Of a DNA stretch of 17,572 bases, positions 1,264-16,419 are shown piece by piece. The notes under the pieces are model-generated. The model did no database searches. It was not told where the DNA came from and saw nothing but the letters and a program-made list of their open reading frames with translations. Position numbers and translations under genes: made by a program. The DNA is from Spirochaetaceae bacterium (GTDB lineage: Bacteria; Spirochaetota; Spirochaetia; Treponematales; Breznakiellaceae), in NCBI GenBank assembly GCA_031279895.1, contig JAITHR010000077.1, positions 1 through 17,572 on the forward strand, in the 5' to 3' direction. Within the stretch, counting starts at the first letter, position 1. Each line of letters begins with the position of its first letter.

Positions 1264-1267
1264 GAAG

Positions 1268-1897
1268 CGCCGCACCTCCCAAGCCACGCGCCGCACCTCC
1301 CGAACTCCGCGCCATACCTCCCGAACCACGCGCCGCACCTCCCGAACCACGCGCCGCACCTCCCGAACTCCGCGCCATACCCCTCAAACTCCGCGCCATA
1401 CCCCTCAAACTCCGCGCCGCACCTCCGTGGCAAAGGGGCGCACCTCCGTCGTAAAGGGGCGCACCTCCGTCGTAAAGGGGCGCACCTCCGTGGCAAAGGG
1501 GCGCACCTCCGTCGTAAAGGGGCGCACCTCCCGAACCACGCGCCGCACCTCCCGAACCACGCGCCATACCCCTCAAACTCCGCGGTTTAGACTTAAGTCT
1601 GAAGTCAAAAACATTGATGTTCTGAGGCAAAACATTGATGTTCTGAGGCAAAACATTGATGTTCTGAGGCAAAACATTGATGTTTCAGGGCAAAACATTG
1701 ATGTTCTGAGGCAAAACATTAATGTTCTGGGGCAAAACATTGATGTTCTGAGGCAAAACATTGATGTTTAGAGGCAAAACATTGATGTTCTGAGGCAAAA
1801 CATTGATGTTTAGAGGCAAAACATTGATGTTCTGAGGCAAAACATTGATGTTCTGAGGCAAAACATTGATGTTTAGAGGCAAAACATTGATGTTTAG
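1268..1897. repeat. Array 1: thirty contiguous 21-bp units in two sequence families
   Basis: Starting four bases after the stop at 1263, the sequence can be cut into 30 units of exactly 21 bp (starts 1268 + 21n). Units 1-15 (1268-1582) are GC-rich. They begin CGCCGCACC, CGCCATACC or GGGCGCACC and end GAACCACG, AAACTCCG or GTCGTAAAG, with no clear dyad. Unit 16 (1583-1603) holds the perfect 12-bp palindrome AGACTTAAGTCT (1589-1600). Units 17-30 (1604-1897) carry AACATTGATGTT, or the perfect palindrome AACATTAATGTT in the unit at 1709, joined by a CTGAGGCAA, TAGAGGCAA or similar linker. The register does not slip across the family changes. Several frames on both strands stay open because 21 is a multiple of three, but I see no ribosome binding site and no recognisable protein. 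Confidence 0.95.
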
Positions 1898-2023
1898 AGG
1901 CGGCGCATAGTAAGCGGAATACGCCGGATGTGAGCCGCGGCGCGGGAAGCTTTTGGAACAGCCGGAGGCTGCGGGGGAGGCGGCTGGTCATAATGAGAGA
2001 AATAGGATATACCTCTAATAAAT
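1898..2023. other. Gap between array 1 and the helicase gene, with a dispersed mini-hairpin
   Basis: After the last array unit the sequence holds one copy of the dispersed hairpin CAGCC-GGA-GGCTG (1959-1971), preceded by TTTTGGAA. It is followed by a GGCTGGT stretch at 1982-1988, also seen before the gene at 6733 and near 13694. The AT-rich segment 1989-2023 leads into the helicase start and contains TCATAAT, a possible -10 element without a convincing -35. No gene is visible. Confidence 0.6.
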
Positions 2024-3829
2024 ATGGAATTTACGGAATTAAACCTACACCCCGACCTCCAACGGGGCATCGCGGACGCGGAATACCATACCTGTATGCC
2101 GGTACAGGAACAGGTCCTCGTTAACGCTTTTGGAGGCCAGGACCTCTATGTCCAATCCCAAACCGGAACCGGTAAAACCGCCGCGTTCCTGATCGTTATC
2201 CTGCAACGCCTCCTTACCGAGCCGATTCTCGCGGGGAAAAAAGCGATCATCATGGTCCCGACCCGCGAACTGGCGGTACAGGTCGAAGAAGAGGCCAGGG
2301 TCCTGGGAAAGTATCTGCCTTTTAAAGCGGGCAGTTTTTACGGAGGGGTCAGCTATACCCAGCAGCACCAGACCCTCAGAGACAACGCGCAGATCCTGGT
2401 GGGAACCCCGGGGCGGGTACTCGACCTTAACCAGTCCGGGCACATGAACCTCATGGACATCGCGTTTCTGGTGCTGGACGAGGCCGACCGTATGTTCGAC
2501 ATGGGCTTCTACCCCGATTTACGCAAGCTTATCAAAGTGGTCCCCCCTGCGGACCGGCGCCAAACCATGCTGTTCAGCGCCACCTTGAACGCCTGGGTCA
2601 AGAACCTGGCATGGGAATACACCAAAGCCCCGCTGGAAATCGAAATCGCGCCGGAGACCGTTACGGTTGACGAGGTTGACCAGCGTCTGTACCACGTACA
2701 GGCGCGGGACAAGATGAAAATACTCCTGGGTATCCTTAAAAAGGAAAACCCCGAAAGCGCCATCATCTTTTGCAACACCAAGCGGTATACGGAAATCGTG
2801 GCCAAACGCCTCGCGCTCAACGGCTACGCCTGCGAGTTTATCATCGGTGACCTCCCCCAGTCCAGGCGCCTCAAAATCATCGAGGGCATCAAGGCCGGCG
2901 AGGTGCGCTACCTCGTGGCCACCGACGTGGCGGCGCGGGGCCTTGATATTGCGGGGCTTGCGCTGGTGGTAAACTACGATGTTCCCAACGAAACGGAGAA
3001 TTACGTGCACCGCATCGGGAGGACCGCACGGGCGGGCAAAACCGGCAAAGCCGTTACGCTGGCCAGCGAACTTGACGTCTACGAGCTGCCTGCGATTGAG
3101 AAGTATATCGGCAAGAAAATCACCGCCGAGGTAGCCGACGAAACGCTCTACGCGCCGGACCGGAGCGAAGGGGCGCGGGCGCAGCCGGTCGCGGAACACG
3201 GCGGGCGCGGGGACCCGCCGAAAGACGAGCAGCGCCCGTCCCGCCGGGGCAGGCGCGGCGGGAGACGGCGGCGGGCGCGGGAGTACGGCAGACCCCCGTT
3301 TTCCGATTCGCGGCGGTTCTTTGAAAAAGAGCGCCCCGCAGGGAGCGACGGGAAAGGGGATGCCCGGAAGAGCGCCCAAAGAAACGCGCCGGTCCGCAGG
3401 CGGCGGCACGAAATCGGCGACGAAGACATCTCCCACCTCTCGTTTGACGAGCGGATGCTGTATTACAAGCGGAAGTACGGGAACCGCAAACCCCCGGCCA
3501 GGGCCAGAACCGTTTCCGCGCCTTCCGTCGCATCCGTTTCACCCCCGAATTCCGCTTCGGAAGAGCGGGGAAATCAGGAACCCTGGAAGCGCCGCGAGCG
3601 GACGCGCCCCGCTCCCGCGGGACCGGAGAAAAGCCGTGCGCCGGATCGGGAGCGGAGCGGGCAGCCGGATTCAAAGAACGCGCCTTCGGCCCGCAAAAGC
3701 ACGGAACACAAAGGTATCCTTGCCCGTATCCTCGATTTCTTTCGAAAACCGGGGGCCGAAAAAGATACGAAAGATACAAAAGCCGGAACGGATAAAACGG
3801 ATAAAAAAAATAAAAAGGATAACACGTGA
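2024..3829 (+). CDS. DEAD-box ATP-dependent RNA helicase with long basic C-terminal tail
   Basis: An ATP-dependent RNA-unwinding enzyme of the RhlE/CsdA type, acting in the cytoplasm on structured RNA in ribosome assembly or mRNA turnover. All helicase motifs are present in order: Q motif (F3, Q28), motif I SQTGTGKT (45-52), PTRELAVQ (79-86), TPGRVLDL (128-135), DEAD (152-155), SAT (185-187), IIFCNTK (247-253), ATDVAARGLDI (299-309) and HRIGRTARAG (329-338). From about residue 375 a tail of some 225 residues follows, rich in R, G, K, P and S. It has an RRGRRGGRRRR patch and ends in Lys-Asp low complexity; such tails usually bind RNA. The ATG at 2024 is chosen because the Q motif starts at residue 3. 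Its Shine-Dalgarno is poor: AGGA at 2004-2007 is 16 bases away. The stop overlaps the next start by four bases (GTGA). The paralogue identity (RhlB, RhlE or CsdA) is not resolved. Confidence 0.95.
   Translation: MEFTELNLHPDLQRGIADAEYHTCMPVQEQVLVNAFGGQDLYVQSQTGTGKTAAFLIVILQRLLTEPILAGKKAIIMVPTRELAVQVEEEARVLGKYLPFKAGSFYGGVSYTQQHQTLRDNAQILVGTPGRVLDLNQSGHMNLMDIAFLVLDEADRMFDMGFYPDLRKLIKVVPPADRRQTMLFSATLNAWVKNLAWEYTKAPLEIEIAPETVTVDEVDQRLYHVQARDKMKILLGILKKENPESAIIFCNTKRYTEIVAKRLALNGYACEFIIGDLPQSRRLKIIEGIKAGEVRYLVATDVAARGLDIAGLALVVNYDVPNETENYVHRIGRTARAGKTGKAVTLASELDVYELPAIEKYIGKKITAEVADETLYAPDRSEGARAQPVAEHGGRGDPPKDEQRPSRRGRRGGRRRRAREYGRPPFSDSRRFFEKERPAGSDGKGDARKSAQRNAPVRRRRHEIGDEDISHLSFDERMLYYKRKYGNRKPPARARTVSAPSVASVSPPNSASEERGNQEPWKRRERTRPAPAGPEKSRAPDRERSGQPDSKNAPSARKSTEHKGILARILDFFRKPGAEKDTKDTKAGTDKTDKKNKKDNT
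3815..3819 (+). promoter_or_regulatory. Ribosome binding site for the ABC-F gene
   Basis: AAGGA lies six bases upstream of the GTG at 3826. It supports that GTG as the start even though it overlaps the helicase stop codon. Confidence 0.7.
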
Positions 3830-5448
3830 TAACCATTACCGATGTGAGTCTCAGGTACGGGGAGCGCACCCTGTTTAAGGACGTGAACCTCAAATTCACC
3901 GCCGGCAACTGCTACGGGATTATCGGCGCCAACGGCGCGGGCAAATCCACGCTCCTCAAAATTATCGCGGGAGAGGCGGAACACGGGCGGGGTACGATTT
4001 CCGTGGGCACCGGCGAGCGGATAGCGGTTCTGCGGCAGGACCACTTTGCCTTCGAGGAGTTTCCGGTGCTTGAAACCGTGATTATGGGGCATCCCAAACT
4101 CTACGCGGTGCAGAAAGAGCGGGAGGCGATTTACGCCAAAGAGGATTTCTCCGAGGCCGACGGAATTCGGGTGAGCGAGCTGGAGGGGGACTTCGCGGAG
4201 CTGGGCGGCTGGGAGGCGGAGTCCCAGGCCGGCCAGATACTTTCCGGCCTGGGGCTTGAGGAGGCGGATCAGGGCAAACGCATGGCGGACATCGACGAGT
4301 CCAGGAAGGTGCGGGTTCTGCTGGCCCAGGCCCTGTTCGGCAGTCCCGATATTCTCCTCCTTGACGAGCCGACAAACGGCCTTGACCTTGAGTCTATCGC
4401 GTGGCTTGAGGACTTTCTCATGGACTTTCCCAACACCGTGATTGTCGTGTCCCACGACCGGCATTTTCTCAACGCGGTATGCACCCATATCTGCGATATT
4501 GATTTCGGGAAAATCACCGCCTATTCGGGCAACTACGATTTCTGGTACCAGATGAGCCAGATACTCCAGCGTCAGGCGCGGGATCAGCTCAAAAAGCGGG
4601 AGGAGAAGTCGCGGGAGCTTAAAGAGTTTATCCAGCGTTTCGCGTCAAACGCCGCGAAGAGCCGGCAGGCCACGAGCCGCAAGAAGGTGCTGGAGAAGCT
4701 TGACCTTGAGAGCATCACCGTAACCAGCCGGAAGTTCCCCTATGTGGGCTTCAAACCGGAGCGGGAGATTGGGAACAACGTGCTGCGGATAGAGGGGCTG
4801 GGTTCCGAAGACGGCGCCCTGTCCGATTTCAGCCTCACGGTGAACAAGGGGGACAAAATCGCGTTTGTGGGCGTCGAACATCAGGCGAAGTCCGCGCTCT
4901 TCGACCTTATCGCCGGTGAAAAAAAGGCGGCTTCCGGCGGATACGCCTGGGGGCAGACCGTCGGTTTCTCGTATTTTCCCAAAGAGAACGCCCCGTGGTT
5001 TACCGGCGGCCTCTCGATTGTCGAGTGGCTCAGGCAGTATTCGCCGGATCAGGACGAGACGTATGTGCGGAGTTTTCTGGGGCGGATGCTTTTTTCCGGC
5101 GACGAGGCGCTTAAGCCGGTACACGTGCTTTCCGGCGGGGAAAAGGTGCGGTGTATGCTTGCGCGGATGATGCTTTCCGGCGCGAACGCGCTCATCCTCG
5201 ACGAGCCCACGAACCACCTTGACCTTGAGGCCATTACCGCGCTGAACGACGGGCTTGCGGCGTTTAAGGGGGTGGTGCTGTTCAACGCCCACGACCACCA
5301 GTTTGTCAATTCCGTGGCGAACCGGATTGTGGAGATCCTGCCGCACGGCCTTATTGACCGGATGATGCCTTTTGACGAGTACCTTGCAGACGAATCGGTA
5401 CGCGCCCTCCGCGCCGAAGCGTACCACCACACCCGCCTCCGCATCTAA
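3826..5448 (+). CDS. ABC-F family ATPase, YbiT-type
   Basis: A cytosolic twin-ATPase protein that binds the ribosome; no membrane segments. NBD1 has Walker A GANGAGKS (34-41), Walker B LLLDEPTNGLD and an SHDRHF switch. Its signature is DIDESRKVRVLLAQALF instead of LSGGQ, as in E. coli YbiT, where this motif is also degenerate. The interdomain linker carries FASNAAKSRQATSR, a strong YbiT hallmark. NBD2 has an intact LSGGEKVR signature and LILDEPTNHLDLE. Its Walker A reads GVEHQAKS, lacking the usual second and third glycines, and the switch reads AHDH. Related Gram-positive proteins have an AK[ST] form of this loop as I recall, so this may be a subfamily trait rather than damage. Starts at GTG inside the helicase stop (GTGA), so translation is probably coupled. 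The exact role at the ribosome is unknown. Confidence 0.93.
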   Translation: MITITDVSLRYGERTLFKDVNLKFTAGNCYGIIGANGAGKSTLLKIIAGEAEHGRGTISVGTGERIAVLRQDHFAFEEFPVLETVIMGHPKLYAVQKEREAIYAKEDFSEADGIRVSELEGDFAELGGWEAESQAGQILSGLGLEEADQGKRMADIDESRKVRVLLAQALFGSPDILLLDEPTNGLDLESIAWLEDFLMDFPNTVIVVSHDRHFLNAVCTHICDIDFGKITAYSGNYDFWYQMSQILQRQARDQLKKREEKSRELKEFIQRFASNAAKSRQATSRKKVLEKLDLESITVTSRKFPYVGFKPEREIGNNVLRIEGLGSEDGALSDFSLTVNKGDKIAFVGVEHQAKSALFDLIAGEKKAASGGYAWGQTVGFSYFPKENAPWFTGGLSIVEWLRQYSPDQDETYVRSFLGRMLFSGDEALKPVHVLSGGEKVRCMLARMMLSGANALILDEPTNHLDLEAITALNDGLAAFKGVVLFNAHDHQFVNSVANRIVEILPHGLIDRMMPFDEYLADESVRALRAEAYHHTRLRI

Positions 5449-5481: not shown

Positions 5482-5604
5482 CATGGCCGCTTGTTGCTTC
5501 AAAGTAGTGCAACACCCTGTCCGGTGAGCGGGCTGGCACAGCCCAGGCGCGGCTACGCTCTCGCGCCGTCTCCGGCGGTTCGGGAGCCGTGCGTTGTTGT
5601 GCGC
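5482..5604 (+). repeat. Left inverted arm flanking array 2
   Basis: This 123-bp segment reappears inverted at 6539-6661. The outer 44 bases match at 39 positions, sharing TTCAAAGTAGTGCAACACC. Further shared blocks are GGCGCGGCTACGCT (5546-5559) and GCGTTGTTGTGCGC (5591-5604) in the same order and nearly the same spacing. Within the arm, TGTTGC (5492-5497) and GCAACA (5509-5514) form a small stem, and CCGTC-TCC-GGCGG (5566-5578) is one of the dispersed mini-hairpins. Confidence 0.85.
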
Positions 5605-5606
5605 CG

Positions 5607-5619
5607 CAGCCTCCGGCTG
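5607..5619. repeat. Dispersed mini-hairpin CAGCC-TCC-GGCTG
   Basis: A 5-bp stem with a three-base loop, the reverse-orientation form of the hairpin at 1959-1971, followed by TTTCAGACGG. The stretch from 5620 to 5690 between it and array 2 shows only a CAGCCTCCCCGC segment (5649-5660), which recurs inverted near 6526-6536. Confidence 0.7.
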
Positions 5620-5889
5620 TTTCAGACGGTTTTCCGGCTACTTTAGACAGCCTCCCCGCCAATACGCGCCGGATTCCCGCCATGACAAACGGACGTCCGA
5701 ATGAAGTATTCGGGAGGCCGAATGAAGTATTCGGGAGGCCGAATGAAGTATTCGGGAGGCCGAATGAAGTATTCGGGAGGCCGAATGACTCATTCGGGAG
5801 GCCGTCCAAGTCATTCGGACGTCCGGCCAACGTAAACGTGCGCAAGTCCGTCGTATACGTGCGCAAGTCCAACATAAACTTGCGCACGG

Positions 5890-5963
5890 ACGCAATGGGG
5901 AGCGGGGGTTCTCTGTTGGCGTGAGAACCTCCGCCGGCATTGGTACGCGGGAATGGGTTGTTC
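5890..5963. repeat. Duplicated spacer segment, copy 1 (copy 2 at 6184-6257)
   Basis: About 68 of 74 bases are identical between 5890-5963 and 6184-6257, offset by 294 bp. The segment starts ACGCAATGGGGAGCGGG, contains the GTTCTC hairpin, and ends in the first core of the next block. In the forward heptad frame it ends each block with a TGA and provides a TTG that could restart the frame. Confidence 0.85.
5908..5928. repeat. Hairpin in the first core-free stretch of array 2
   Basis: GTTCTC (5908-5913), a nine-base loop and GAGAAC (5923-5928) pair perfectly, with one more G-C pair outside. The same hairpin occurs at 6202-6222 in the second copy. Its centre is off the 21-bp lattice, so it belongs to the duplicated spacer rather than to the repeat series. 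Confidence 0.6.
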
Positions 5964-6538
5964 CTGGTCAGAAATGAGTCATTCCTGGTCAGAAATGAAG
6001 TATTCCTGGTCAGAAATGAAGTATTCGGGAGGCCGAATGAAGTATTCGGACGACCCGCCAACATAAACTTGCGCAAGTCCGTCATAAACTTGCGCAAGTC
6101 CAACGTAAACTTGCGTCAATCCGTCGTAAACTTGCGTCAATCTGTCGTATACGTGCGCAAGTCCATGACAGACGGGCGCACTGACGCAATGGGGAGCGGG
6201 AGTTCTCTGTTGGCGTGAGAACCGCCTGCGGCATTGGTACGCCGGAATGGTTTGTTCCCGTTCAAGAATGAGTCATTCCTGGTCAGAAATGAAGTATTCC
6301 TGGTCAGAAATGAAGTATTCCTGGTCAGAAATGAAGTATTCCTGGTCAGAAATGAGTCATTCCTGGTCAGAAATGAGTCATTCCTGGTCAGAAATGAGTC
6401 ATTCCTGGTCAAGAATGGGTTGGGAATAGTCATGGCCGCGTTGGAAACATTCGTCTGCGCCCTGGAAACGAATGTTTTCAAGTTGGAAACGAATGTTTTT
6501 GCGCCGGAGACGGTCGTGGCCACTGCGGGGAGGCTGTT

Positions 6539-6661
6539 GCGCACAACAACGCGGCGCTTGCAAACCGCGACCGGCTGCGCGAAGCGTAGCCGCGCCTCAA
6601 CAGCAACCAGCGAAGTAACCGGACGAGGTGTTGCACTACTTTGAAATAACAGGCGGCCATG
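6539..6661 (-). repeat. Right inverted arm flanking array 2
   Basis: Inverted partner of 5482-5604 and of equal length. The TGTTGC stem is damaged on this side: 6629-6634 faces ATAACA at 6646-6651. A piece of the same sequence (GGACAGGGTGTTGCAC and neighbours) is found alone at 9017-9047 in this orientation, again just upstream of a gene. Confidence 0.85.
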
Positions 6662-6722: not shown

Positions 6723-6737
6723 ACCATAGGGTATGGT
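6723..6737 (+). promoter_or_regulatory. Inverted repeat containing the start codon of the dehydrogenase gene
   Basis: ACCATA (6723-6728), GGG, TATGGT (6732-6737) is a perfect 6-bp inverted repeat with the ATG at 6733-6735 inside its right arm. In RNA it could hide the start codon; in DNA it could be a small operator. No clear Shine-Dalgarno precedes the ATG. Confidence 0.45.
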
Positions 6738-8118
6738 GAATGAAAATGATGCGGCACCGGGCCTTTCCCTTGAGGACTGTCTTCGGGCCGCCAGTGAAAC
6801 CGCGCTGTGCGTTGTGAAGGACGGCGCGCTCAAAGAGACCCCCGCGGCGCTGCGGGAGTATTTCGGCGCGTCTCCGGTCTGCTGCCTTGTGGCCGGGCCC
6901 CGTACCTACGAGGCGGCGGGGAAACTCCTTCAAAAGGAACTTGAACGCGCCGGCTTTGCGGTAAAGTCCTTTGTGTTCCCCCCGGGAATACACGCGGATT
7001 ACGCCCATGTGAAGACCGCGCTGGATTTTTTCTCCGGCGTATCGGATGCGGGAAATCCGGTGCCGATTGCGGTCGGGAGCGGCACCGTAAACGACGTGGT
7101 GAAACGGGCCGCCTTTGAACGGGGTCTTCCCTACCTCTGCGTACCCACCGCCGCGTCGGTTGACGGGTACACCTCGGCAGGCGCGGCGCTTCTCTTTGAA
7201 GGCTTCAAGCAGACCCTCGCGTGTAGCGCGCCGCGGGCCGTGGTGGCGGATACCGCCGTGCTTGGCGCGTCTCCGGCGTACCTTTCCTCTTCGGGCTTCG
7301 GGGATTTGGCCGGGAAAATCACCGCGGGAACCGACTGGATTATCGCGGAAAAGGCCGGGGAGTTCGGGGCGCCCGGGGCGGAGCCTGTTGACCGGAAAGC
7401 CTGGGCCATGACCCAAACCCCCCTTATGGACGCGCTTGGCCGCTCGGTTGACGCGGCAAAGGGGGACGCGGGCGCGGTGGAGGCACTGTTCGGCGCGCTG
7501 GCGGTTACGGGCTTCGCCATGCAGTACCACAAGAACTCCCGACCGGTGTCCGGCTCGGAACACTCGTTTAGTCATGTCTGGGAGATGGACGGCCTTTCAA
7601 CGGAACACGGGGCGCCGGTAACCCACGGCCACAAGGTAACGATAGGCACGCTTTTGACCGCCGCGTTTACCGAGGTCTTTTTTGCGGATCCCGAAGGGCC
7701 GCCGCCGGCGCCCGCCTGTTTTGTCCGACCGGACCTTGCGGCGCGGGAGGAAGAGGCGTCCCGGGCGTTTTCCCGTTCTCCGGCGCGTGGCGCGGTGCTG
7801 AAGACGGTGCGGGAAAAGTTTATGGGCCCCGAGACGGCGCGGCGGGTAAACGCCGGATTTCTGGACAACTGGCGCGAAATCCGGCAGGCGGTTCTCGGAA
7901 GGCTCCCTCCCTACGCGGAACTGCGGGAATTACTGGGCCGGGCGGCCTGCCCCCTCACGCCGGAAGCCGTCAACCTGAGCCGGTCCGCGGCCATTGCCGC
8001 CGCACGGCGGGCGCAGATGATACGGAACAAGTACGGCGTCCTTGACGCGGCCTGGGATTTGGGCTGTTTTGAAACGGTGCTTGCCCGCATAGAAGACTCG
8101 GAGCGGTATGCGCGGTGA
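6733..8118 (+). CDS. sn-glycerol-1-phosphate dehydrogenase-like enzyme (AraM/EgsA family)
   Basis: A cytosolic NAD(P)- and metal-dependent dehydrogenase of the iron-containing alcohol dehydrogenase superfamily. AraM and EgsA reduce dihydroxyacetone phosphate to sn-glycerol-1-phosphate. Motifs in order: nucleotide-binding GSGTVND (115-121), PTAASVDGYTSAGA (138-151), GFGDLAGKITAGTDW (188-202), SGSEHSFSH (273-281) and THGHKV (297-302). The likely metal ligands are D191, H277 and H298. About 130 residues follow the core and end in an alpha-helical domain. At 461 residues it is longer than the roughly 400 of B. subtilis AraM as I recall. The start at ATG 6733 lacks a good Shine-Dalgarno and lies inside an inverted repeat. 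The next gene overlaps by four bases (GTGA). The substrate is inferred from family only; another polyol phosphate is possible. Confidence 0.85.
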   Translation: MVNENDAAPGLSLEDCLRAASETALCVVKDGALKETPAALREYFGASPVCCLVAGPRTYEAAGKLLQKELERAGFAVKSFVFPPGIHADYAHVKTALDFFSGVSDAGNPVPIAVGSGTVNDVVKRAAFERGLPYLCVPTAASVDGYTSAGAALLFEGFKQTLACSAPRAVVADTAVLGASPAYLSSSGFGDLAGKITAGTDWIIAEKAGEFGAPGAEPVDRKAWAMTQTPLMDALGRSVDAAKGDAGAVEALFGALAVTGFAMQYHKNSRPVSGSEHSFSHVWEMDGLSTEHGAPVTHGHKVTIGTLLTAAFTEVFFADPEGPPPAPACFVRPDLAAREEEASRAFSRSPARGAVLKTVREKFMGPETARRVNAGFLDNWREIRQAVLGRLPPYAELRELLGRAACPLTPEAVNLSRSAAIAAARRAQMIRNKYGVLDAAWDLGCFETVLARIEDSERYAR

Positions 8119-13744: not shown

Positions 13745-13763
13745 GCGGGCAATGAATGCCCGC
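13745..13763 (+). promoter_or_regulatory. Inverted repeat with AATGAAT loop in the transporter leader
   Basis: GCGGGC (13745-13750), AATGAAT, GCCCGC (13758-13763). A shorter relative, CGC-AATGAAT-GCG, is at 13808-13820, sixty bases downstream. The same loop with different paired flanks suggests a repeated operator or RNA signal upstream of the binding-protein gene. Confidence 0.4.
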
Positions 13764-13850
13764 GTTTAGAAGAGGCTCCCTACAAAAAACCATCTATGCA
13801 AAACGTGCGCAATGAATGCGACGCGATACGGCCTGAAGGTACAGCACACA

Positions 13851-13856
13851 GAGGAG
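13851..13856 (+). promoter_or_regulatory. Ribosome binding site for the binding-protein gene
   Basis: GAGGAG, seven bases before the ATG at 13864, is the best Shine-Dalgarno in the window and fixes the start. Confidence 0.8.
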
Positions 13857-13863
13857 TAACACC

Positions 13864-15411
13864 ATGAAGAAAACAGGAATCTGCGTCGCGGCGCTCTGCG
13901 CCCTGACCGCAGCGGCCTACCCAAGCCCCAAAGCGCAAAAACGCGCCGCGGCGCAACCGGCGCAGGAACTGGTCATAGGGGACCAGTTTGACCTGCGGCA
14001 TATCGACCCCGCCCAAGGGATGCTCGACGATACCCAGATTTTAGTGTATAACGGCCTTGTGGAGATGGATTCCCAGTTCAGACAGGCGCCGGCACTGGCG
14101 GAGTCATGGACTATGAGCGAAGACGGGATGGTCTGGACGTTTCATCTGCGCAAAAACGTGACGTTTCACGACGGAACCCCCTGGAACGCCGAAGCCGCCC
14201 TTGCCAACTTCAAGCGCCTTGACGGATACCCCGGCCTGAGCGACACGGAGCGGGTCGAAACCCCGGATCCCTATACGCTCGTGTTCCAGATGAAACATCC
14301 CACCTATACCCTAAGCTCCAACCTTGCGCGTACCGCCCTGAGCATGGTAAGCCCGCAGGTCATCCAGAGCGACGGCAGTATCACGAAGCCCGTCGGGTCC
14401 GGGCCGTATAAACTGACGAAATGGGAGCGGGATCGGGAGTTTGTCTTTGAGGCATACGACGGATTCTGGGGAGGCCCGCCGCATATACGGAAAATCACCT
14501 TTAAGGTCATTACGGACCCCCAGGCCAGAGCGTCGGCGCTGGAGGCCGGGGAGATCGACATGATGAGCGGCTACCAGTCCCTGCCGGCGGTTAAACGCCT
14601 TGCCGCGGACCCGCGCTTCCAGATTATCAAAACCGTACAGAACACGTCAGGCGCGCTTTTTTATAACCTGAGCCGCCCGCCTCTTGATAATAAAGCGGTG
14701 CGCCGGGCCATTGGACACGCCCTTGATCTCAATACTATGGTGGCGAACCTGCTTCCGGGGCTTGCGTCCCCGCCTTCCGGCTTCTTTTCCCCGGCCTACG
14801 GGGATCTGGTTAATCCGCAGGTGAAAAATCCCTCCTACGACCTGTCCCGCGCCAAGGCGCTCCTTGAAGAGAACGGCTGGACAAGCGGGCCCGGGGGCGT
14901 GCGCGTGCGGGGTTCCCAGCCCTTGCGCCTCACGCTCACCTACGGGGCCGCGAACGCGGAGCACGCGCTCCTTGCCCAAGCAATACAGGACGCGCTGCGG
15001 GCGGCGGGGGTTGACCTTGCCCTTAATCCGGTGGAGGCCGCGGCCCTCGACGATCTTGAAGAGGCCAAGAACTATGACATGATCCTCACGGACCAGTCCT
15101 TTATTCCCACTGACGACCCGTCTTTCCATTACCGGCGGGGATACTGGCACTCCGAGAGCTACTACAAGGTATATACGTCAGAGCCGCTCGACCGTCTCAT
15201 TAACGAACTTGAGATCACGATGGATCGGGAAAAGCGGCGGGCGCTGCACTGGGACATCCAGCGGGAAATCATGGACAACGCGCCGGTATTGATCGTGTAC
15301 CACCGGAACAGCCTCCGGCTTGCCAAAAAGAATATCCGTAACTTCTCTATTTCTTCCGGTTGCTGGCATATTAACCGTGCGCTGAAAGACGCGGTAATCG
15401 ACGCGCCGTAA
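13864..15411 (+). CDS. ABC transporter substrate-binding protein, peptide/nickel family (SBP type 5)
   Basis: The exported solute receptor of a DppA/OppA/NikA-type importer. The N-terminus MKKTGICVAALCALTAAAY is a short signal peptide. C6 and C12 are not in a clear lipobox, so the mature protein may be free in the periplasm, although spirochaete lipoboxes are loose. Family segments in order: LVYNGLVEMD, PALAESWTMSEDGMVWTFHL, NVTFHDGTPWNAEAA, GSGPYKLTKWERD, GFWGGPPHIRKITFKVI, RRAIGHALDL, and ALLEENGW. The length of 515 residues is normal. It has a strong Shine-Dalgarno and a ~135-base leader. A hairpin separates it from the permease genes. Peptides, nickel chelates or opines are all possible ligands; nothing in the sequence decides. 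Confidence 0.92.
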   Translation: MKKTGICVAALCALTAAAYPSPKAQKRAAAQPAQELVIGDQFDLRHIDPAQGMLDDTQILVYNGLVEMDSQFRQAPALAESWTMSEDGMVWTFHLRKNVTFHDGTPWNAEAALANFKRLDGYPGLSDTERVETPDPYTLVFQMKHPTYTLSSNLARTALSMVSPQVIQSDGSITKPVGSGPYKLTKWERDREFVFEAYDGFWGGPPHIRKITFKVITDPQARASALEAGEIDMMSGYQSLPAVKRLAADPRFQIIKTVQNTSGALFYNLSRPPLDNKAVRRAIGHALDLNTMVANLLPGLASPPSGFFSPAYGDLVNPQVKNPSYDLSRAKALLEENGWTSGPGGVRVRGSQPLRLTLTYGAANAEHALLAQAIQDALRAAGVDLALNPVEAAALDDLEEAKNYDMILTDQSFIPTDDPSFHYRRGYWHSESYYKVYTSEPLDRLINELEITMDREKRRALHWDIQREIMDNAPVLIVYHRNSLRLAKKNIRNFSISSGCWHINRALKDAVIDAP

Positions 15412-15415
15412 CGCG

Positions 15416-15434
15416 GGGCGCTGCGGAAGCGCCC
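15416..15434 (+). terminator. Hairpin between binding-protein and permease genes
   Basis: GGGCGCT (15416-15422), loop GCGGA, AGCGCCC (15428-15434): a perfect 7-bp stem four bases after the stop and without a T-run. Such hairpins often protect the receptor mRNA and lower read-through, giving more receptor than permease. Confidence 0.55.
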
Positions 15435-15477
15435 GCCCGCAGGCCGCGCCTTCCGCTGTTCCTCGAAGATTATAAAA

Positions 15478-16419
15478 ATGAGAAAACTGCTTGTCCGACG
15501 CCTGCTTCACTTTTTCCCCACCCTCTTCGGCGTTACGGCGCTCGTCTTTTTCCTCATGCGGGCAGCGCCCGGGGACGGGGCCTATCTCCGGCTGCGCGAA
15601 CTGGGGCTGGACCCTTCGGCGGAAGCGGTGGCGGCCATTCGGGAACAACTGGGGCTTAACCGGCCCCTGGCTGCCCAGTACCTCGCGTGGCTTAAGGACG
15701 TCTTCCGCCTCAATCTGGGAACCTCCCTTACAACCGGCGAGCCGGTGCGGACCGCTCTGGCCCGCCATTTCCGCTGGACACTCCGCCTTACCGCGCCGGT
15801 CATACCGGCGATACTCCTCGCCGCGTTCCCCCTGGCCCTCGCGTCCGCGCTGAACCGCCGGTTTGACCGTGCGGCGCGGGCGGTTCTTCTGGTGGTGATG
15901 TCGGTTCCCTCGTTTTGTCTGGGCCTGCTTCTCATATTCCTTTTCAGTGTCCGGCTCCGGTGGCTCCCCTCTTTCGGCGCCGGCACGAAGGCGCATCTGG
16001 CGCTTCCGGTGCTGACCCTCTCCGCAGGCGCCGCGGCCTATTACGCCCGCTTCATACGCGCCGTGCTTCTTGAGGAGTTCTCCAAAGAATACGTCCGGGC
16101 GGCGCGGGCACGTGGGGTGCGGCAACGGGACATACTCCGCGCCGTGCTGAAAAACGCGCTGATACCCATAACGACCTCCTTCGGCATGAGTTTCGCGACC
16201 CTTCTGGGCGGATCGGCGGTGGTGGAGAAGGTCTTTAGCTGGCCCGGGGTGGGAAAATACTTTATCGACGCGGTGCTGCGCCGCGATTATCCCGTGGTGC
16301 AGGGCTGTGCGCTTCTTTTCGCGGTGGTTTTCGTTTCGGCGAACCTTACGGCTGATATAGCCTGCCTGTTCCTCGACCCCCGCGCCCGCCTGAGAGAACG
16401 GAGCCGGACTCGTGCTTAG
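15478..16419 (+). CDS. ABC transporter permease, DppB/NikB type
   Basis: An inner-membrane subunit of the importer whose receptor is encoded just upstream. 313 residues. The N-terminal helix VRRLLHFFPTLFGVTALVFFLMR leads into the usual ...APGD segment. The family's R/Q-rich stretch IREQLGLNRPLAAQYLAWL, ending near residue 78, and LNLGTSLTTGEPV follow. Helices include VIPAILLAAFPLALASAL and AVLLVVMSVPSFCLGLLLIF. The cytoplasmic EAA loop (KEYVRAARARGVRQRDIL, then KNALIP) contacts the ATPase. The C-terminus has FSWPGVGKYFIDAVLRRDYP. The Shine-Dalgarno is weak (GAAG), so expression may be lower than the receptor's. It overlaps the next gene by eight bases. Confidence 0.94.
   Translation: MRKLLVRRLLHFFPTLFGVTALVFFLMRAAPGDGAYLRLRELGLDPSAEAVAAIREQLGLNRPLAAQYLAWLKDVFRLNLGTSLTTGEPVRTALARHFRWTLRLTAPVIPAILLAAFPLALASALNRRFDRAARAVLLVVMSVPSFCLGLLLIFLFSVRLRWLPSFGAGTKAHLALPVLTLSAGAAAYYARFIRAVLLEEFSKEYVRAARARGVRQRDILRAVLKNALIPITTSFGMSFATLLGGSAVVEKVFSWPGVGKYFIDAVLRRDYPVVQGCALLFAVVFVSANLTADIACLFLDPRARLRERSRTRA

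Follow-up and report, generated by a model that had tools for sequence, protein, structure and literature searches.

A 21-bp intergenic satellite of a spirochaete with a shared dyad register and a degenerate YRNNNYR frame

The DNA analysed here (the window, 17,572 nucleotides) is contig C123 of a Spirochaetaceae assembly (G000) of 1.88 Mb in 292 contigs, with a completeness of 74.68. It carries two arrays of 21-bp repeats (Table 1), the second of which lies between a gene for a two-domain ABC ATPase, presumably of the ABC-F type, and an Fe-ADH_2 family gene, which we take to encode a glycerol-1-phosphate dehydrogenase-like protein; both genes are on the plus strand. An imperfect inverted repeat with arms of about 130 bp encloses this array and matches many sites of the genome, on many contigs and in both orientations. 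With the array element and its flanks as query, at least 193 matches were obtained in the genome itself (best 40 of 533 candidates scored), and searches of phage and plasmid collections gave no match. The Fe-ADH protein of the window led to ten named loci, all in Treponema or Spirochaetaceae assemblies, which we read as relatives of termite-gut origin. Among these ten, the next gene, of the RluA type, is still adjacent to the Fe-ADH gene only in L046 (relative G005), whose contig begins within an array.

Table 1. Genes, repeats and unit blocks of the window
Feature	Position	Strand	Remarks
First 21-bp array	1267..1901		Blocks on different offsets, without a common lattice
Two-domain ABC ATPase gene	3826..5448	+	Domains ABC_tran, ABC_tran_Xtn; upstream of second array
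Imperfect inverted repeat around array, left arm	5482..5614	+	Dispersed repeat of the genome
21-bp lattice, YRNNNYR box on integer dyad axis	5506..6556		45/50 consecutive rows
Array as first reported	5691..6503		Inverted repeats mostly on one 10.5-bp lattice
CCGAATGAAGTATTCGGGAGG unit block	5697..5818		TRF; integer axes 5705, 5726, 5747, 5768, 5789
CGTAAACGTGCGCAAGTCCGT-type unit block	5831..5886		TRF; core on half-integer axis
Non-repeated 63-bp stretch (3 x 21), register kept	5884..5946		Stem-loop centred at 5918, 3 bp off lattice
AATGAGTCATTCCTGGTCAGA-type and CCGAATGAAGTATTCGG unit block	5952..6047		Axes 5957-6041
Block with ACTTGCGCAAGT cores	6064..6164		Cores at 6072.5 and 6093.5
Non-repeated stretch, second copy	6178..6245		Part of a 207-nt direct repeat, 294 bp apart, 87% identical
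AATGAGTCATTCCTGGTCAGA / AATGAAGTATTC unit block	6246..6418		Axes 6251-6419
TGGAAACGAATGTTTTCA-type units	6430..6503		Cores at 6471.5 and 6492.5
Imperfect inverted repeat around array, right arm	6529..6661	-	Same inverted repeat as 5482..5614
Fe-ADH_2 family gene	6733..8118	+	Downstream of second array

The original prediction placed the centres of the palindromic cores of the second array on one 21-bp lattice, and this is exact: the series 5705 + 21n covers the centres at 5705-5789, 5957-6041 and 6251-6419. Cores of other sequence indeed lie 10.5 bp off it, namely ACTTGCGCAAGT (6072.5 and 6093.5), AAACGAATGTTT (6471.5 and 6492.5) and GGACGTCC (5694.5 and 5820.5). The limits of 5691 and 6503 first given for the array enclose sequence on the lattice but are too narrow, the lattice spanning about 5506-6556. 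An unguided scan of 5674-6513 for inverted repeats (arm at least 5, loop at most 9) placed 24 of 28 on the 10.5-bp lattice, and a gene control of 840 bp gave 12 inverted repeats, none on that phase. The four off the lattice lie at 5812, 5887.5, 5918 and 6212. A GGTTCTC...GAGAACC stem-loop occupies 5907-5929 and has a copy centred at 6212, both 3 bp off the lattice in the non-repeated stretch. The common-axis dyad score of the array also stood out from shuffled units as anticipated (0.482, compared with 0.333 ± 0.020 and a maximum of 0.399 in 200 shuffled-unit controls).

We agree that a tandem palindrome has two dyad axes per period. Repeats inside one block therefore count only once, and the independent question is whether different blocks agree in phase. 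The sample for this question comprised 48 sequences of the same genome (the window, 20 contigs taken by matches, 20 by number and 7 match loci), in which TRF reported 126 period-21 blocks without overlap. A unique dyad axis, with a perfect run of at least 5, could be assigned to 53 of these, and the other 73 were left out. Sixteen pairs of neighbours lay within 300 bp of each other, and 15 of them joined unrelated units (fewer than 14 of 21 positions identical in any rotation or strand). The phase difference was 0 in 13 of the 15 pairs, where 1 in 21 was expected, and 3 bp in the remaining two; some block transitions recur in paralogous arrays, and by our count about eight of those among the 13 of 15 are distinct. 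The sixteenth pair, of related units 225 bp apart (L064), was off phase by 7, which counts against a shared phase.

Written in rows of 21 bp, the array follows a degenerate rule, Y R NNN Y R, whose middle N falls on the integer axis, with one such box every 21 bp. Between 5674 and 6503, 36 of 39 points carry the box, and of the 50 rows that make up 5506-6556, 45 do, with a background of 5.8% per position; the box also occurs in sequence that TRF leaves unreported as a repeat, such as 5611-5694. Among 42 distinct rows, the four Y-R columns belong to one class in 95%, 88%, 100% and 98%, and the other columns in 50-69%, with the exception of column 19 (83% R). The cores had been called unrelated; their sequences do differ, but the relation is not wholly absent, as YRNNNYR is common to them. 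Differences between units concentrate on the 3-bp triplet inside a block, and the arms differ between blocks.

The same box recurs in other arrays of the genome, at 38/39 and 28/28 points in L057, 37/37 in L066, 38/42 in L072, 22/22 in L073, 21/21 in L069, 20/20 in L070 and 17/18 in L067. It is weaker or absent in L060 (26/48), L064 (30/47 and 19/37), L056 (1863-3853, 30/95), L057 (960-1275, 6/15), L059 (5314-5522, 3/10) and L127 (7926-8115, 1/9). In a shuffled-unit control, each unit family was shuffled separately and the best offset retaken each time, over 500 shuffles. The 50 rows of the window held 45 boxes, compared with 12.0 ± 3.6 and a maximum of 26 in the shuffles. A first run on 15 hand-picked arrays out of 58 had 11 that beat all 500 shuffles, and the control was then run on all 58 arrays and on six more from relatives, giving 45 arrays of this genome and 19 of relatives. 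Of the former, 21 have one or two unit families and say little in such a control; 19 of the 24 with at least three families beat all 500 shuffles. Shuffled units, the comparison that the original prediction had proposed against itself, thus fail to reproduce the agreement. The five that did not beat the control are L056:1863-3853, L057:960-1275, L059:5314-5522, L064:750-1536 and the first array of the window.

That first array lies between the NFACT and DEAD-box helicase genes and is built of three types of unit at different offsets, in part lacking palindromes. Its box is present at 19 of 29 points, and 29 of 500 shuffles reached this value. With no single common lattice, the first array counts against a general lattice rule.

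Unit families also share a motif in register, with an information of 4.44 versus 1.99 ± 0.50 (17 families) and, in other sets, of 4.70 versus 2.98 ± 0.77 (12 families, P 0.04) and 6.34 versus 3.65 ± 0.78 (9 families). The autocorrelation of YRNNNYR at lag 21 was 1.62 and fell to 1.25 after masking of tandem repeats. We rejected it as specific evidence, because lag-21 peaks also appear for seven control R/Y motifs (1.32-1.65), as expected of tandem copies, which repeat any motif.

We then considered the arms around the axis. Over 26 unit families (28 loci of this genome and 10 of relatives), the longest palindromes summed to 122 versus 94.6 ± 4.1; the whole-unit dyad score per family showed little gain (5.80 versus 5.26). 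In a pooled set of 38 row families, drawn from the window and 15 further lattices of this genome at offsets preset by the box, the full box was present in 29, a count that is partly built in by this choice of offsets. At distances of 4, 6 and 7 bp from the axis, partner columns showed Watson-Crick covariation above that of shuffles in these 38 families, and columns 2 and 3 bp from the axis showed no covariation beyond shuffles (P 0.27 and P 0.17, respectively). Two layers can therefore be distinguished in the units: the Y-R frame is fixed in its order, and the arms are mirror-complementary but free in sequence. Most multi-family arrays of this genome combine such a constant frame with free arms.

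Substitutions were counted by joining distinct unit variants in minimum spanning trees and comparing the Y-R columns with the others. The ratio of transitions to transversions in a first set was 22:0 in the Y-R columns versus 44:40 elsewhere (P 6e-6); a second set, from four further seeds of which two overlap, gave 18:1 versus 32:41 (P 3e-5), and both together 40:1 versus 76:81 (P 4e-10). When the offset was slid, the true one was the best of 21 in the first set and also with both sets added; in the second set alone, offset +1 beat it (25:2 versus 25:40, P 8e-7), which counts against the frame. Relatives G005 and G010 offered too few changes for such tests. Unit length is nearly invariant, with 377 of 378 tandem steps at exactly 21 bp and one at 20 bp, compared with 842 substitutions, in blocks whose preselection by TRF as period 21 favours constant length. 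Paralogues that share at least 85% identity differ by 3 indels per 553 mismatches on the lattice, compared with 40 per 420 in the flanks. This set replaced a gapped comparison of whole elements (488 gaps not of 21n), which we discarded as confounded by the forced alignment of different unit families.

Period-21 repeats are abundant in this genome. On 20 of its contigs taken by number, repeats of exactly this period make up 2,716 of 112,195 bases (2.4%) and occur on 11; multiples of 21, three 105-bp repeats of another kind included, make up 3.19% and occur on 12. In 60 stretches from 26 relatives (714 kb; 52 stretches arbitrary, 8 from previously met contigs), multiples of 21 account for 0.26%, and among periods of 15 to 30, the value 21 occurs most often (14 of 41 TRF rows). 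Several arrays, including those at L057, L061, L063 and L117, end at contig ends; the assembly therefore probably breaks in arrays, and array length is undercounted.

Drift of the cores off the lattice in relatives had also been named as evidence against the prediction, and here the outcome is mixed. The box is kept at most points in arrays of G005 (23/23 and 17/17), G010 (14/14) and G017 (8/8), which came via sequence matches to the window, and of G015 (12/12), which came from an arbitrary contig. It is lacking in 21-bp arrays of G001 (2/9 in L103, 3/17 in L104), G003 (2/6, 2/5) and G013 (2/10, 1/8); a further G001 array, L153, has it at 7/7, unlike L103 and L104. Most of the box-bearing arrays of relatives consist of a single family and do not rise above the shuffled-unit control. 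None of the 19 beat all 500 shuffles, 15 of them being uninformative with a single unit family; among the four with three families, the observed value was reached by 1 of 500 shuffles in G017 (L102), by 31 in G008 (L165) and by 469 and 500 in two arrays of G013. Given these outcomes of the control, the YRNNNYR rule can be taken as firm in the majority of the multi-family arrays that this genome carries, and other genomes give no more than a hint of it. In L103 of G001 (13762-15708), an open frame of 649 codons, in which a methyltransferase-like NPPY motif was seen by eye, has the 21-bp array (13802-13986) at its start, in frame.

Other periods occur as well. Locus L139 (8198-9137) of G008, which belongs to a related genus, carries palindromes of the type GATCAG-NNN-CTGATC, a similar design with a free triplet at the axis, and of the 36 intervals between palindromes in G008, 18 measure 22 bp, 11 measure 23 bp and 7 have other values. 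In G013 (L144, 8887-9235), a 23/24-bp array contains a GTGTG...CACAC palindrome. The design of a palindrome plus a free triplet may thus be wider than the number 21, and because G008 has it at 22-23 bp, helical phase as such is unproved.

These arrays resemble several known systems in part. REP/BIME and Correia-type elements are intergenic, dispersed, palindromic and flanked by inverted repeats, and the arrays share these features; those elements are sequence families, whereas the arrays have largely free sequence at fixed spacing. A single-copy Y1 transposase gene, as in REP/RAYT systems, is present: the one PF01797 match of the genome (G000:C185:7571-7867, L152) marks a RAYT candidate, and short dispersed palindromes such as CAGCCTCCGGCTG occur in the same genome. 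Plasmid iterons are direct repeats of about 21 bp in helical register, with one sequence and one Rep protein, at an origin; the arrays resemble them in repeat length and register but lie at many sites with many sequences. CRISPR arrays have identical repeats and unique spacers of 25-40 bp; in these arrays, differences within blocks fall on the 3-bp triplet, long spacers are absent and the arms differ between blocks.

Prokaryotic satellites are defined as at least four tandem repeats of 10-200 nt, in a non-coding family found at many sites of a genome (PMC6749651). The arrays fit this definition on both counts: the period-21 TRF rows of the window include 5.1, 6.9, 7.6 and 14.0 copies, with other rows shorter, and the family is non-coding by codon tests and present on 11 of 20 contigs. 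The same source (Subirana and Messeguer 2019) describes non-coding satellite families of Leptospira interrogans, which, like these arrays, are tandem and non-coding and occupy many dispersed loci in a spirochaete. The Leptospira families listed there have units of more than 30 nt, compared with 21 bp here, and the part of that paper available to us does not describe one exact period across different unit sequences, a dyad phase or a purine/pyrimidine frame, as found here (PMC6749651).

Fis sites, according to the available part of PMC4784862, are diverse and read by shape, with Y-R at ±(3-4) in about 80% of half-sites and contacts over 21 bp. The arrays resemble them in diversity of sequence, dyad symmetry, flanking Y-R steps and the length of 21 bp; they differ in having Y-R steps at ±(2-3) instead of ±(3-4) and in forming an unbroken tandem of sites (PMC4784862). 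Moreover, G or C is not fixed at ±7 of a 15-bp core (column 3, C16 G11 A9 T6; column 17, G17 C9 A9 T7; 42 distinct rows), and the centre is not A/T-rich, columns 9-11 holding all four bases (column 10, C13 G14 A8 T7). No stand-alone Fis was found in the genome, the three HTH_8 matches lying in open frames of 440, 504 and 511 aa, and with an assembly about 75% complete, a Fis gene may have been missed. The genome has one gene of the HU type. The resemblance to Fis sites is a likeness, not membership. A literature search by title or abstract, with most subscription journals outside its range, gave no description of these arrays among the matches listed, and the accessible part of PMC13067680 holds nothing relevant to them.

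Several explanations have to be weighed against these observations. A protein of seven-residue repeats (21 bp being 7 codons), in one frame and open on both strands, was already disfavoured and is very improbable. Rare indels would agree with it, as would the mostly open state of the frame that puts the axis at codon position 3 (418 aa from stop to stop in L066; 836 aa in L070, mostly outside the array), a G+C content by codon position of 0.52/0.40/0.63, in the same order as in genes (0.64/0.44/0.74), and variation that is lowest at codon position 2 in two out of three sets of paralogues (0.081/0.028/0.097, 0.071/0.012/0.059 and 0.167/0.141/0.120 for 10, 5 and 18 distinct sequences). However, purifying selection at the codon level was not found: changes are flat over codon positions (34/36/36), 33 of 106 are synonymous at a random expectation of 0.29-0.31, and these paralogues of the non-repeated parts show no excess at the third position over the first. 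Two conserved Y-R columns fall on third codon positions, TGA stands in frame in four of five copies of the non-repeated 63-bp stretch (two of the five within the window), the L066 frame has no protein relative at E <= 0.001, and none of seven ORFs over the arrays of the window has a Pfam match above the cut-off. The spacing of 22-23 bp in G008 is likewise incompatible with coding. On the codon tests, the in-frame TGA and the absence of protein relatives, we rejected a heptad-repeat protein.

An array of hairpins or cruciforms, in which each unit folds into a short stem and a loop with the free triplet and acts as single-stranded DNA or RNA, is unlikely. The partner covariation at 4, 6 and 7 bp would suit it, and six of seven hand-chosen stretches, when folded as DNA, surpass almost every dinucleotide shuffle (z -2.5 to -13.7; 0-3 of 200 as good). 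The seventh shows no such excess (z -1.1, 32/200), nor does the lattice stretch 5596-5694 (z +0.7), and Rfam gave no match in the window at the gathering score. Pairing of the Y-R columns is no better than their composition allows, so that order is kept there and not pairing; we therefore rejected an RNA or DNA hairpin as the sole common cause. An anticodon-like loop, with the free triplet in a 7-nt loop, does not fit the pattern. Least probable of all is that YRNNNYR serves a mobile element as a symmetric target or as a joint for recombination, with units added or swapped there. The variable triplet lies at the axis, mixed border units often join near it by eye and the genome has one Y1 transposase gene, but joins inside cores were also seen by eye and neither an element boundary nor a target duplication was demonstrated. 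The main rival is a selfish or neutral satellite without function, derived from one 21-bp palindromic ancestor, in which slippage and exchange keep the period and template switching at hairpins keeps the arms complementary; we regard it as a serious possibility, if one that we would sooner doubt than accept. According to the available part of PMC8794818, hairpins reportedly arise and persist through template switching. The in-register motif common to unit families is what descent would give, paired arm columns change less than unpaired ones (83 changes in 110 paired versus 36 in 30 unpaired columns), and array density is high in this genome and low in most of the sampled relatives. Neutral descent leaves unexplained, however, the absence of transversions from the Y-R columns and of indels beside indel-rich flanks, and compensatory double changes are rare (2 in 71 edges). 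Symmetric templated double changes were rejected, as 5 of 40 doubles were mirrored and none of these was compensatory.

In our reading, the second array is a non-coding satellite of 21-bp units whose register is maintained at the level of the DNA itself. Since length changes and transversions in the Y-R columns are rare, selection probably acts on the frame as DNA, and we consider a constraint on it at the DNA level likely. The original prediction was of selection on helical phase and dyad symmetry rather than on sequence. Dyad symmetry and register are indeed under tighter constraint than the sequence of the arms; "rather than a sequence" was too strong, given the degenerate rule YRNNNYR, and helical phase as the selected quantity is unproved.

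For satellite DNA held in register in this way, the following origin may be proposed. Tandem units would arise and turn over by slippage or unequal exchange, which would leave blocks of near-identical units. Across the blocks of most multi-family arrays of this genome, a Y-R step on each side of the free triplet, a dyad axis every 21 bp and mirror-complementary free arms stay constant. On the reading that we favour, each frame would be a dyad site read by shape by a hypothetical homodimeric DNA-binding protein and, with one site per two helical turns, a run of units would form a regular binding lattice between genes. A dimer that reads shape by way of flexible Y-R steps would depend on order, symmetry and spacing and on hardly anything more; Fis is the known model of such a protein. 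As the cause of the DNA-level constraint, such a protein lattice, with a dimer as the candidate, is possible at somewhat less than an even chance. No binding protein for the lattice was identified, and complementary arms peculiar to each family would be unexpected for a single sequence-specific dimer; both points count against a protein lattice.

Tentatively, and with more doubt than conviction, we suggest that these arrays represent a class of satellites defined by geometry and not by sequence, an unbroken lattice of dyad sites with selected Y-R steps and spacing, which might serve as a scaffold for a putative protein that reads shape and, in this lineage of spirochaetes, coats or phases the DNA between genes. 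Even as selfish DNA, the arrays would be a heavy satellite load for the genome (2,716 of 112,195 bases at period exactly 21 in the contig sample). If the suggestion is true, bacterial intergenic arrays can be functional without any revealing sequence motif or alignment, because purine/pyrimidine order, symmetry and spacing are what is conserved. Selection on helical phase would become testable within one genome, with many multi-family arrays and a measurable deficit of indels and transversions, and the arrays would point to an unknown chromosome-organising or element-borne protein.
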